A stretch of 64,000 nucleotides of DNA from assembly GCA_027030245.1 (NCBI GenBank), contig JALVFE010000016.1, positions 496,001 to 560,000 of the forward strand, given 5' to 3'. This document shows positions 16,050 to 18,984 of the stretch, piece after piece; the stretch's first letter is position 1; every line of letters starts with the position of its first letter. Position numbers and translations under genes: made by a program. The notes under the pieces are model-generated. The model did no database searches, was not told where the DNA came from, and was given only the letters and a program-made list of their open reading frames with translations. The DNA is from Melioribacteraceae bacterium (GTDB lineage: Bacteria > Bacteroidota > Ignavibacteria > Ignavibacteriales > Melioribacteraceae).

Positions 16050-17339
16050 TTAAATCTCGATAAACCGGTCTTGATAAAACATCTTGCCATTATTTATGAC
16101 CGCTACCGGTTTACCCGTAAGCAATCGTTTATCGAAAGGCGAATTTTTCGATTTCGATTTGAATTTGGAAACATCCACCGTCCAGACTTCTTCGGTATCG
16201 AATATTGTAAGATTTGCTTTTTCGCCCGCTTGAATTTTGGGAACGGGAAGGTTTAATATTTTCCTTGGGTTAACTGCAAATTTTTCTACAAGTTGAGTTA
16301 ATGTAAGATGCCCTTTGTGAACCAATTCGGTAATTGCCAAACCCAATTCGGTTTCCAAACCGATTATTCCGTTCGGGGCAAGGGTAAATTCCATATCTTT
16401 TTCTTCGGGGGAATGCGGCGCGTGATCGCTTGCAATAACGTCAATCGTTCCGTCTTTTAATCCTTCGATTATTGCTTCCACATCTTCTTTTGTTCTTAAC
16501 GGCGGATTCATTTTATAATTGGTATCGAAAGTTTTAAGATTTTCTTCGGTCAACGTAAAATGATGCGGCGTTGCTTCGGCGGTAACTTTTAAGCCTTTTT
16601 TCTTTGCTTGTCTTACAAGTTCAACGCCATTCTTCGTACTGATATGAGCAATGTGCAGACTTCCGGCACCGAGATATTCCAACATTAAAATATCCCGCAT
16701 TATCGTCAGGTCTTCGGCAACTGAAGGAACAGGGGGCAAACCGAGTAGAGTTGAAGTAATTCCTTCGTTCATCGAACCGCCTGCAAGGGTTTCGTCCTCG
16801 CAATGTTCGATAACCGGTTTGTTATACATGTGTGAATATTCGAGCGCTTTTCTTAAGATCGCCGCGGTTTTCACTGCCACTCCGTCGTCGGAAAATGCTA
16901 CCGCTCCGGATTCGGAAAGTTCCGCCATCGGAGCGAGAACCTCGCCTTTTCTTCCTTGCGTAACAGCGCTAATAGGATCGACATCTACGAGATGATTTTT
17001 AGCTTTCTCTTTAATCAGGTTAACAACTTCGGCGGAATCTATTGCAGGTTCGGTGTTCGGCATGCAAGCTACCCCCGTAAAACCGCCCGCAGCAGCGGAA
17101 TTACTTCCGGTTATTACCGTTTCTTCGTCTTCCCTTCCGGGTTCCCTGAAATGAACATGCATATCATAAAAACCCGGACTGACATATTTTCCCGTAAAAT
17201 CGAATACTTTATCCGCCTGAAGCATATTTCCGGAGCTTTCCACATTCGTAATAATTCCGTCTTCAATTAAAATATTTACCGTTTCATTTAATCCGGTAAC
17301 CGGATCAATTGCATTGATGTTTTTAAGTAAAATTTTCAT
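16050..17339 (-). CDS. pyrC: Dihydroorotase
   Basis: This enzyme closes carbamoyl aspartate to dihydroorotate in pyrimidine synthesis, in the cytoplasm. The metal-binding DMHVHFREPG has HVH at residues 61-63. Further ligands appear in VIEHCEDE, HIAHIST and IASDHAPHSPEEK. At 429 residues it is a type I (Bacillus/Aquifex-like) dihydroorotase, not the shorter E. coli PyrC type. It is the last gene of pyrR-pyrB-pyrC, 23 bases after pyrB, and shares the attenuated pyr promoter. Confidence 0.96.
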   Translation of the reverse strand: MKILLKNINAIDPVTGLNETVNILIEDGIITNVESSGNMLQADKVFDFTGKYVSPGFYDMHVHFREPGREDEETVITGSNSAAAGGFTGVACMPNTEPAIDSAEVVNLIKEKAKNHLVDVDPISAVTQGRKGEVLAPMAELSESGAVAFSDDGVAVKTAAILRKALEYSHMYNKPVIEHCEDETLAGGSMNEGITSTLLGLPPVPSVAEDLTIMRDILMLEYLGAGSLHIAHISTKNGVELVRQAKKKGLKVTAEATPHHFTLTEENLKTFDTNYKMNPPLRTKEDVEAIIEGLKDGTIDVIASDHAPHSPEEKDMEFTLAPNGIIGLETELGLAITELVHKGHLTLTQLVEKFAVNPRKILNLPVPKIQAGEKANLTIFDTEEVWTVDVSKFKSKSKNSPFDKRLLTGKPVAVINNGKMFYQDRFIEI

Positions 17340-17362: not shown

Positions 17363-18283
17363 TTAATTCATTGTTCCTAATAAATAAAGCACCGCCATTC
17401 GGATTGCAACACCGTTTGTGACTTGATCGAGAATTACTTGATAAGGACCGTCTGCAACATCCGAAGAAAGTTCCACTCCCCTGTTTATCGGTCCGGGATG
17501 CAAAATTAAAACATCTTTATTGTTTTTTTCTATCCGTTCCGATGTAATTCCGAAATAATTATGATATTCCCTGAGCGAAGGAATGGACGAACCGGCGGCA
17601 CGTTCAAGTTGAATACGCAACACGTTTAACACATCGTGTTCGGCTATTGCTTTATCGATATCATGATAAACTTTTACTCCCAAGTTTCCGATTCCTTTGG
17701 GAATCATAGTAGCCGGACCGCACACGCTTACTTTTGCCCCCATTGTTTGTAGCCCGAAAATATTCGAAAGCGCCACTCTGCTGTGTGCAATATCCCCGAT
17801 AATGCATACTTTCAATCCTTCCAATCTTCCGGTTTTTTCTCTAATCGAATACATATCCAATAACGCTTGAGTCGGATGTTCGTGCCTTCCGTCTCCGGCA
17901 TTGATGATATTCGCATTTGTAATTTTGGTTAGATAATGTGGAACACCGGCAGAGCTGTGTCTTACAACAATCATATCAATTTTCATTGCTTCAATATTTT
18001 TCACCGTATCTTTAAATGTTTCTCCTTTGCTCGTGCTACTTCCCGCTTTTGAAAAGTTAACCGTATCGGCGGAGAGCCTTTTTTGTGCAAGCTCAAAAGA
18101 AATTCTTGTTCTTGTGGAGCTTTCGTAGAACAAATTTACTACGGTTTTACCTTGCAGAGTGGGAACTTTTTTTATCGGTCGCTCCAACACCTCGCGGAAA
18201 GTTGTTGCGGTATCGAGAATAGTTTGAATGTCTTCTTTGGGTACGCCGTGTAGTCCCAACAAATGTTTACTTGAAAGTGACAT
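17363..18283 (-). CDS. pyrB: Aspartate carbamoyltransferase catalytic subunit
   Basis: It joins carbamoyl phosphate and aspartate, the committed step of pyrimidine synthesis. The carbamoyl-phosphate loop SSTRTRISFE is at residues 55-64, HPTQALLDMYS near 137 and LHPGPINRGVE near 266. The length (306) is normal for PyrB. No regulatory PyrI subunit gene follows, so like the Bacillus enzyme it is probably regulated only at expression. It starts three bases after the pyrR stop codon. Confidence 0.97.
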   Translation of the reverse strand: MSLSSKHLLGLHGVPKEDIQTILDTATTFREVLERPIKKVPTLQGKTVVNLFYESSTRTRISFELAQKRLSADTVNFSKAGSSTSKGETFKDTVKNIEAMKIDMIVVRHSSAGVPHYLTKITNANIINAGDGRHEHPTQALLDMYSIREKTGRLEGLKVCIIGDIAHSRVALSNIFGLQTMGAKVSVCGPATMIPKGIGNLGVKVYHDIDKAIAEHDVLNVLRIQLERAAGSSIPSLREYHNYFGITSERIEKNNKDVLILHPGPINRGVELSSDVADGPYQVILDQVTNGVAIRMAVLYLLGTMN

Positions 18284-18286
18284 AAA

Positions 18287-18832
18287 TTAATCTTCCGAAA
18301 TATCTATTAAATAAACTGCGTCTTCGCCGTCGATTTCTTTCATTTTAACTTTAATCTCTTCGTTGATTGAAGTGGGAATATTTTTACCCACGAAATCCGG
18401 ACGTATCGGCATTTCGCGGTGACCTCTATCGATTAAAACACAAAGCTGAATTGTGTTAGGTCTGCCTAAATCCATTAGCGCATCGAGAGCCGCTCTTGCC
18501 GTTCTGCCGGAAAACAAAACATCATCGATAAGAATTATATCCTTTTCATTAATATCGAAAGTAATGTTTGTAACCGAAACTTCGGGTTGTTTCAAACGCG
18601 TACGGAAATCGTCCCGGTAAAGCGTTACATCCAAAACACCCAGCGGTGGCTCGCTCTTGTCGATTTCCTTAATTTTTTCGTGAATTCGTTTGGCGATAAA
18701 TTCCCCTCTGGTTCTCATACCGATCAATACAATATTTTCGGAACCTTTATTCCGCTCGAGGATTTCGTGTGCGAGGCGGGTAATTGTGCGGTTTAATCCC
18801 GCTTCATCAATTAATTGTGCTTTTATTTTCAT
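18287..18832 (-). CDS. pyrR: Bifunctional PyrR: pyr attenuation regulator / uracil phosphoribosyltransferase
   Basis: PyrR binds UMP and the pyr leader RNA to cause termination, and also makes UMP from uracil and PRPP. The 181-residue protein carries the PRPP motif IILIDDVLFSGRTARAALDAL at about 99-119. It also has the family N-terminus (TRLAHEILERNKG, then LIGMRTRGEFIAKRI) and LYRDDF. The start agrees with the family. There is no ribosome site at normal distance before the ATG, because the terminator hairpin ends 16 bases upstream. Translation may depend on coupling to the short leader ORF whose TGA overlaps this ATG. It is the first gene of the pyr operon. Confidence 0.96.
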   Translation of the reverse strand: MKIKAQLIDEAGLNRTITRLAHEILERNKGSENIVLIGMRTRGEFIAKRIHEKIKEIDKSEPPLGVLDVTLYRDDFRTRLKQPEVSVTNITFDINEKDIILIDDVLFSGRTARAALDALMDLGRPNTIQLCVLIDRGHREMPIRPDFVGKNIPTSINEEIKVKMKEIDGEDAVYLIDISED

Positions 18833-18909
18833 GTGTATTTAAAAAAAATCCTCATTGACGAAAAGTCGATGAGGTTTTCTCCTGTTTGATTAATATTAGT
18901 TATGTGCAT
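18829..18909 (-). CDS. Possible 26-residue leader peptide ORF in the pyr leader
   Basis: Reading from the ATG at 18907-18909, the peptide MHITNINQTGENLIDFSS continues for eight more residues through the terminator. It stops at a TGA that overlaps the pyrR start as ATGA. The arrangement would allow translational coupling to pyrR, which lacks its own ribosome site. Against it, AAGGA lies directly against the leader ATG with no spacing, and an open frame this short could be chance. Confidence 0.3.
   Translation of the reverse strand: MHITNINQTGENLIDFSSMRIFFKYT
18841..18876 (-). terminator. pyr attenuator: Rho-independent terminator before pyrR
   Basis: On the minus strand CCTCATcGAC, a TTTTC loop and GTCaATGAGG form a stem with one mismatch. 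It is followed by a single A and eight T, 16 bases before the pyrR ATG. Its 5' arm (CTCAT) can instead pair with GTGAG in the PyrR-binding hairpin, which would give the antiterminator form. Confidence 0.85.
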
Positions 18910-18916
18910 TCCTTTT

Positions 18917-18933
18917 TTATCTCACTGGATAAA
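18917..18933 (-). promoter_or_regulatory. PyrR-binding RNA hairpin (anti-antiterminator)
   Basis: TTTATCCAGTGAGATAA on the minus strand contains the conserved PyrR-binding loop UCCAGnGAG inside the perfect stem TTATC/GATAA. It lies between the promoter and the attenuator terminator, which is where PyrR binding loops stand in Bacillus pyr leaders. Confidence 0.8.
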
Positions 18934-18953
18934 GTTAAAGGTAAATTTTCTTA

Positions 18954-18984
18954 CAAACTTATAAAAAAAAGTCAGAACCTCAAA
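18954..18984 (-). promoter_or_regulatory. Bacteroidota-type promoter of the pyr operon
   Basis: TTTG (18981-18984) and TAAGTTTG (18954-18961) are separated by exactly 19 bases on the minus strand, a perfect match to TTTG-N19-TAnnTTTG. The predicted RNA start near 18947 gives a leader of about 115 bases containing the PyrR hairpin and terminator. Confidence 0.75.

Follow-up and report, generated by a model that had tools for sequence, protein, structure and literature searches.

The window, which is the whole 64,000-nucleotide stretch of DNA analysed here, carries a PyrR leader ahead of pyrR-pyrB-pyrC (Table 1), and this observation is confirmed. The leader is probably a PyrR-controlled attenuator of the three genes in which a translating ribosome serves as the antiterminating element. 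The hairpin, the start of a leader open reading frame (ORF), its open frame and the terminator are read from the sequence and from comparison with relatives; from the same material we infer all steps of the mechanism, namely PyrR binding, ORF translation, termination and the dependence on UMP.

According to this proposal, transcription would start just 5′ of the PyrR hairpin. When UMP is plentiful, PyrR-UMP would keep the hairpin closed and shield the start of the leader ORF. Because that start lies only 0-13 nt past the hairpin (1 nt in the window), the closed hairpin would block ribosome loading, the terminator would fold, and RNA polymerase would leave before pyrR. When UMP is scarce, a ribosome would load and translate the ORF up to or into the 5′ arm of the terminator, which would prevent the stem from forming and allow read-through. 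Opening of the terminator would also uncover the pyrR start region beside the 3′ arm.

Table 1. Features of the pyr leader and operon, in window coordinates
Feature	Position	Strand	Basis or remark
pyr attenuator leader, whole	18829-18984	minus	upstream of pyrR-pyrB-pyrC
Promoter, taken to be of Bacteroidota type, TTTG-N19-TAAGTTTG	18954-18984	minus	sequence; TTTG 18984-18981, TAAGTTTG 18961-18954
Predicted PyrR-binding hairpin	18911-18941	minus	RF00515, clade model R1, stem covariation; TTATCCAGTGAGATAA (18932-18917) inside
A-rich linker, 36 nt	between PyrR hairpin and terminator	minus	
Predicted intrinsic terminator CCTCAT-CGACTTTTCGTCA-ATGAGG and U-tract	18841-18874	minus	stem covariation; arms 18874-18869 / 18855-18850, U-tract 18848-18841
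Putative leader ORF, 26 codons and stop	18829-18909	minus	ATG 18909-18907, TGA 18831-18829
pyrR, 181 aa	18287-18832	minus	NF003549, 242.7 bits (cut-off 138)
pyrB, aspartate carbamoyltransferase	17363-18283	minus	NF002032, 403.5 bits (cut-off 263); starts 3 nt past pyrR
pyrC, dihydroorotase	16050-17339	minus	TIGR00857, 423.9 bits (cut-off 279)

The PyrR hairpin and the promoter

The PyrR protein of the window scores well above the cut-off of its NCBIfam equivalog model (Table 1), and solved PyrR chains match it at 7e-64 to 6e-44. The next gene after pyrR is pyrB in all 59 named loci with enough sequence, out of 61 loci in all. The positions that the initial annotation had assigned to the leader elements agreed with our re-reading of the minus strand.

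An Rfam search of the window at gathering thresholds gave no match. In a relaxed search, RF00515 aligned to the leader over the full length of the model (51.2 bits, E 2.7e-6, below the gathering cut-off of 54), with non-standard pairs mainly in the model's middle stem, and a PyrR-type hairpin with the CC-N-G-N-GAG loop is present ahead of the pyr genes. Across the whole 3.8-Mb genome, the leader was the best place for this model (51.2 bits, E 6.1e-6), followed by a match of 25.3 bits. The initial annotation, which had recognised the PyrR loop and proposed such a covariance search, had held that a score below threshold here and in related genomes would count against it; taken literally, this is what we found, as the window stays below the cut-off and 57 of 58 genomes have no match above it. 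Nevertheless, a clade model, R1, built from 64 aligned leaders (alignment A1) with the window's own genus left out, scored the window at 89.2 bits (E 1.4e-12; next match in the genome, 26.4 bits), and together with the covarying stem in relatives these scores uphold the PyrR loop.

The same leader was also found in related genomes, where the initial annotation had suggested that it be sought. RF00515 matched at E ≤ 0.01 in 44 of the 58 genomes, the window's own included (above the cut-off in one), and all 30 listed loci, again with the window's own, lie upstream of pyrR at a distance of at most about 90 nt. By coordinate comparison, R1 matched at pyrR in 52 of the 54 genomes having pyrR; many of these 52 had themselves fed the model, and the four genomes of the window's genus had not. 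The lower matches in the window's own genome (at most 25.3 bits with RF00515 and 26.4 with R1) were judged by score alone. Extra matches of the two models in relatives (L065, L070, L073-L075 and L183-L185) were rejected as second PyrR sites, being terminator-like stretches without an adjoining pyrR. One of them, L065 (G036:C64:13951-14090), is a terminator-bearing leader before an ORF that by eye resembles anthranilate synthase (trpE), and is possibly another attenuator.

The leaders compared below derive from 156 pyrR loci, 135 of which have distinct upstream sequence (21 duplicates were dropped). The hairpin was detected by a first pattern in 121 of these and by a second in 3, with none in the remaining 11. 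The 124 hairpin leaders consist of 2 from Bacillota, 23 more distant ones and 99 assigned to the window's order, the last comprising 58 genomes placed by computed kinship and 41 contigs placed by rank of PyrR identity (at least 65%), some of which carry only Bacteroidetes or Chlorobiota labels. Nineteen chosen pairs of the hairpin and the terminator form in 95.4% of 1216 alignment cells, and changes on both sides were seen in 12 of the 19 pairs (6.2 in shuffles) and in 117 cells (36.6 in shuffles). Unaided, RNAalifold recovered 14 pairs from the aligned leaders, which make up the upper stem of the PyrR hairpin and the terminator, and it found no third stem beside them. The leader folds at −21.7 kcal/mol, compared with −12.2 for shuffled sequences (sd 2.9, n = 200, 2 of which fold as well).

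The promoter TTTG-N19-TAAGTTTG of the initial annotation, which we take to be the Bacteroidota-type consensus, was found where it had been placed, and its box recurs in relatives. An exact TAnnTTTG box ending 0-25 nt 5′ of the hairpin is present in 46 of the 99 leaders, against a mean of 3.1 and a maximum of 9 in 500 shuffles. The upstream element of the 90 leaders having at least 5/6 of the box is TTTAC in 45 and TTTG in 14. A sigma-70 scan reported no promoter on the minus strand at the leader. Judged from the promoter, the transcript would start at about position 18947, which would put the hairpin almost at its 5′ end.

The leader open reading frame

In calling the leader complete with promoter, PyrR loop, alternative pairing and terminator, the initial annotation overlooked the ORF at 18909-18829. 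In the window, the AAGG of the hairpin 3′ arm ends one base ahead of the start of this ORF, and its TGA overlaps the ATG of pyrR (18832-18830) as ATGA. An ATG lies within 16 positions past the hairpin in 82 of the 99 leaders, whereas 1000 shuffles of the linkers gave 24 on average and never more than 41. Among the 17 leaders lacking it, 13 have TTG (11) or GTG (2) within 13 positions, where about 13% would be expected, and the other 4 have no ATG, GTG or TTG in range; counting any start codon, the total is 95 of 99 (in 1000 linker shuffles, 33.5 on average and 49 at most). The position of the ATG varies among leaders over the range given above, and we therefore take it for a start codon rather than part of a fixed RNA motif. 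No ATG was present within 18 nt 3′ of the hairpin in any of five Bacillota hairpins. The 23 more distant leaders have ATG in 13 cases, GTG or TTG in 4 and none in 6, these being counts without a shuffle control.

The frame behind the ATG is also kept open. Of the 82 ATG leaders, 79 have a detected terminator and were used for the frame tests. Ahead of the terminator, 30 of 774 codons in the ORF's own frame are stops, compared with 91 of 754 and 84 of 727 out of frame (p = 5e-11), which is a roughly three-fold depletion; in a thinned set of 46 leaders the counts are 17/448, 50/438 and 45/419 (3.8, 11.4 and 10.7%; p = 3e-6), both p-values being optimistic as the leaders are related. The ORF ends before the terminator in 26 of the 79 leaders, in every case by no more than 16 nt, and inside or beyond it in the other 53. 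In frame, none of the 79 leaders has its first stop farther than 16 nt ahead of the terminator, whereas 32 and 23 do in the other two frames, the 16-nt limit having been set post hoc as the largest value observed. This distance is about the forward reach of a ribosome. The GTG and TTG leaders with the codon at +0 or +1 (n = 10) showed no separation of frames, with stops in 5/101, 11/97 and 4/94 codons. Taken as a signature of leader-ORF attenuation, in which the ORF would lead a ribosome to the terminator, the pattern in the sequence is strong for this putative ORF.

We considered whether the ORF might be an N-terminal extension of pyrR and rejected this, its frame relative to pyrR being 0 in 23, 1 in 21 and 2 in 35 of the 79 leaders. 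A regulatory peptide was rejected as well, given that the predicted peptides share no sequence by eye; the likely function of the ORF is therefore translation as such and not its peptide. In 24 of the 99 leaders the ATG directly abuts AAGG, which is thus too close for a normal Shine-Dalgarno sequence. A Shine-Dalgarno-like 4-mer precedes 10 of 40 long ORFs in the window, compared with a background of 6%, and a search of the window's own genome for 16S rRNA, from which the anti-Shine-Dalgarno sequence might be read, found none. A Shine-Dalgarno sequence as the loading signal of the leader ORF is weakly supported.

The terminator and the competing explanations

The terminator that had been annotated just before pyrR was borne out: its stem covaries in relatives and is followed by a U-tract, as would be expected of an intrinsic terminator ahead of structural genes. 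The run of five T residues 3′ of the stem is invariant in the 64 aligned leaders of A1. At least 7 of the 10 positions after the stem are T in all 96 leaders, a count that is partly by construction because the terminator search required a T run. The 3′ arm ends within 13 nt of the pyrR ATG in 76 of 96 leaders, and in the window it carries the GAGG nearest to the pyrR start. A simple terminator scanner reported this palindrome on the plus strand only, not on the minus strand. In many relatives, the two covarying stems of the terminator appear by eye to be separated by a 2 × 2 internal loop without pairing, in which GC often faces AA (A1 columns 109-110 with 132-133). A purine element (AGG, GGA or GAG) occurs in the last 9 nt 5′ of the terminator in 66 of 96 leaders, compared with 3 of 67 nine-base blocks from other parts of the linkers; in the window it lies at 18882-18875 (minus strand). 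Pairing with the U-tract and a slowing of the ribosome on the leader are two possible roles.

One could envision instead a classical attenuator of the Bacillus type, in which, when PyrR is absent, the 5′ arm of the terminator forms an antiterminator either with the linker or with the 3′ half of the hairpin, and the leader ORF is incidental. Such was the reading of the initial annotation, which had GTGAG of the loop pair with CTCAT of the terminator arm. The letters are complementary, and the RF00515 alignment spans the full model, as this explanation would have it, but the antiterminator role drew no support from folding. For the window's transcript truncated ahead of the 3′ terminator arm, the best fold (−9.8 kcal/mol) keeps the PyrR hairpin closed, whereas forcing GUGAG to pair with CUCAU gives −3.3 kcal/mol, which is 6.5 worse. 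The pairing is also rare in relatives: among 96 leaders, the median probability that the 5′ arm pairs with the hairpin is 0.006, and 6 leaders exceed 0.3. The same calculation at four Bacillota sites (two at L175 and one each at L176 and L177, with the weaker L178 site left out) gave 0.37, 0.70, 0.63 and 0.49 for two sites of Bacillus velezensis, Paenibacillus and Lactobacillus; a further Bacillota control, L179, had no RF00515 match. With any upstream partner, mostly the linker, the 5′ arm pairs at a median probability of 0.36, and above 0.5 in 23 of 96 leaders, so that a weak local antiterminator formed with the linker is possible on these computed values, although we do not favour it. A Bacillus-type antiterminator common to the hairpin and the terminator 5′ arm was not found in the window and is rarely predicted among its relatives, and the classical scheme leaves unexplained both the conserved start codon and the depletion of stops in one frame. 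We regard it as unlikely.

Alternatively, PyrR might act mainly on translation, by halting translation of a leader ORF coupled to pyrR, with the pyrR start region concealed by the second hairpin and termination playing a minor part. The closeness of the terminator 3′ arm to the pyrR ATG in 76 of 96 leaders would suit such an arrangement, as would the 26 of 79 ATG leader ORFs that reach or pass the pyrR start, and the PyrR-dependent translational repression reported for Mycobacterium smegmatis offers a precedent. However, an invariant five-T run would be needless if the start had merely to be masked, and the other 53 ORFs fall short of pyrR, which makes this explanation improbable. An arrangement like that of Escherichia coli pyrBI, whose leader ORF likewise extends up to or into the terminator, would have UTP-dependent pausing of RNA polymerase decide whether the ribosome catches up, with PyrR secondary. 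The linkers, however, are A-rich (56% A, 23% T) and show no U-rich pause tract of the pyrBI type, their longest U run being at most 3 in 81 of 96 and 4 or 5 in the remaining 15, and the PyrR hairpin is conserved and covarying; we consider this scenario very improbable. A ribosome whose entry is gated by the PyrR hairpin is the reading that we carry forward.

Distribution and relation to known systems

The initial annotation had taken the host for a member of the Bacteroidota, which comes near. The genome is close to Melioribacteraceae (Ignavibacteria), its nearest named relatives being Melioribacteraceae, Stygiobacter, Melioribacter and Ignavibacterium, with the NCBI lineage Ignavibacteriota; in GTDB, Melioribacteraceae belong to Bacteroidota. 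In a phylum sample of 296 genomes, RF00515 matched in 43, of which 20 belong to the window's order, 13 to the rest of its class and 10 lie outside the class. The match precedes pyrR in 20 of 20, 12 of 13 and 0 of 10 of these, respectively. We rejected the 10 matches outside the class as PyrR leaders; none has a pyrR within 1.6-3.1 kb around it, and they are therefore taken as chance matches. The PyrR protein occurs in 176 of 296 genomes (apparently the same draw), 42 in the class and 134 outside, and RF00515 detects a leader at pyrR in 32 of the 42 and in none of the 134. As no such leader was found in these 134 genomes, PyrR may have another mode of action there or a purely enzymatic role. 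Nearly all of them have two matches to the PyrR family model.

By pattern search, such a hairpin was also detected ahead of pyrR in 11 named loci with labels other than Ignavibacteria or Bacteroidetes, including records of Calditrichota, KSB1, Zixibacteria and LCP-89. In view of these hairpins in other phyla and of the 49-53% identity of PyrR to four Bacillota records, we do not favour a recent transfer from Bacillota. In or near the group, pyrR without a PyrR hairpin by pattern was noted at L094 (upstream sequence the same as at L157), L164, L166, L168, L169 and L171-L173; these loci are candidates for lost control or a diverged site.

On balance, we lean towards a distinct class of PyrR attenuator that would be widespread among Ignavibacteria, with traces in other FCB-group phyla. 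In it, an RNA-binding metabolite sensor would control whether ribosomes enter a leader ORF whose sequence is not conserved, and the ribosome would serve as the antiterminator, bringing PyrR control and translation coupling of the pyrBI type together within about 100 nt. What is new is the predicted combination of a PyrR hairpin and a leader ORF without a classical antiterminator across most of the sampled order. If this is true, one protein-RNA module, PyrR and its hairpin, has been joined to different output devices by phylum, RNA refolding in Bacillota and a gated ribosome in Ignavibacteria, which would help to explain why the Rfam model half-recognises these leaders. The start codon would also offer a clear mutational target for transcription-translation coupling in a group with modest use of Shine-Dalgarno sequences. 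Our literature search found no paper pairing Ignavibacterium with PyrR and none combining PyrR, "leader peptide" and Thermus.

PyrR attenuation is a familiar mode of control in Bacillota. Like the pyr attenuators of Bacillus subtilis and RF00515, the leader described here has a PyrR hairpin near the mRNA start and a terminator before pyrR in a pyr operon. It differs in that one site was found in this genome, compared with three attenuators in B. subtilis, in that no RNA antiterminator is predicted and a leader ORF is present, and in that the terminator abuts the pyrR start. In the B. subtilis scheme described in PMC7430163, segment B pairs with A or with C, and the pairing values computed above for Bacillota fit this arrangement; the same paper gives the PyrR site consensus ARUCCAGAGAGGYU, with which the window agrees at 10 of 14 positions (counted by hand). 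A survey of 255 genomes listed 211 pyrR RNA sites, according to PMC3766115, and the portion of PMC2965389 that mentions PyrR and "leader peptide" does not treat a leader-ORF arrangement of this kind.

The terminator and leader ORF also set the present arrangement apart from M. smegmatis, with which it would share a PyrR acting on a ribosome-binding region. PyrR-dependent translational repression was reportedly described there by Fields and Switzer in 2007, and neither element is known to be involved in it. For Thermus ZO5, Van de Casteele et al. are said to have proposed in 1997 that PyrR binds where a leader ORF, itself followed by a terminator, has its ribosome-binding site; the likeness would lie in this overlap of the PyrR site with the start of the leader ORF, and it lowers the novelty of our proposal. 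In E. coli pyrBI, a ribosome on the leader ORF prevents the terminator before pyrB, and UTP is sensed without PyrR through pausing of the polymerase in a U-rich tract. The ribosome as terminator blocker is the feature that we propose to be shared with pyrBI, whereas the window and its relatives have an A-rich linker and, ahead of the ORF, a PyrR hairpin.
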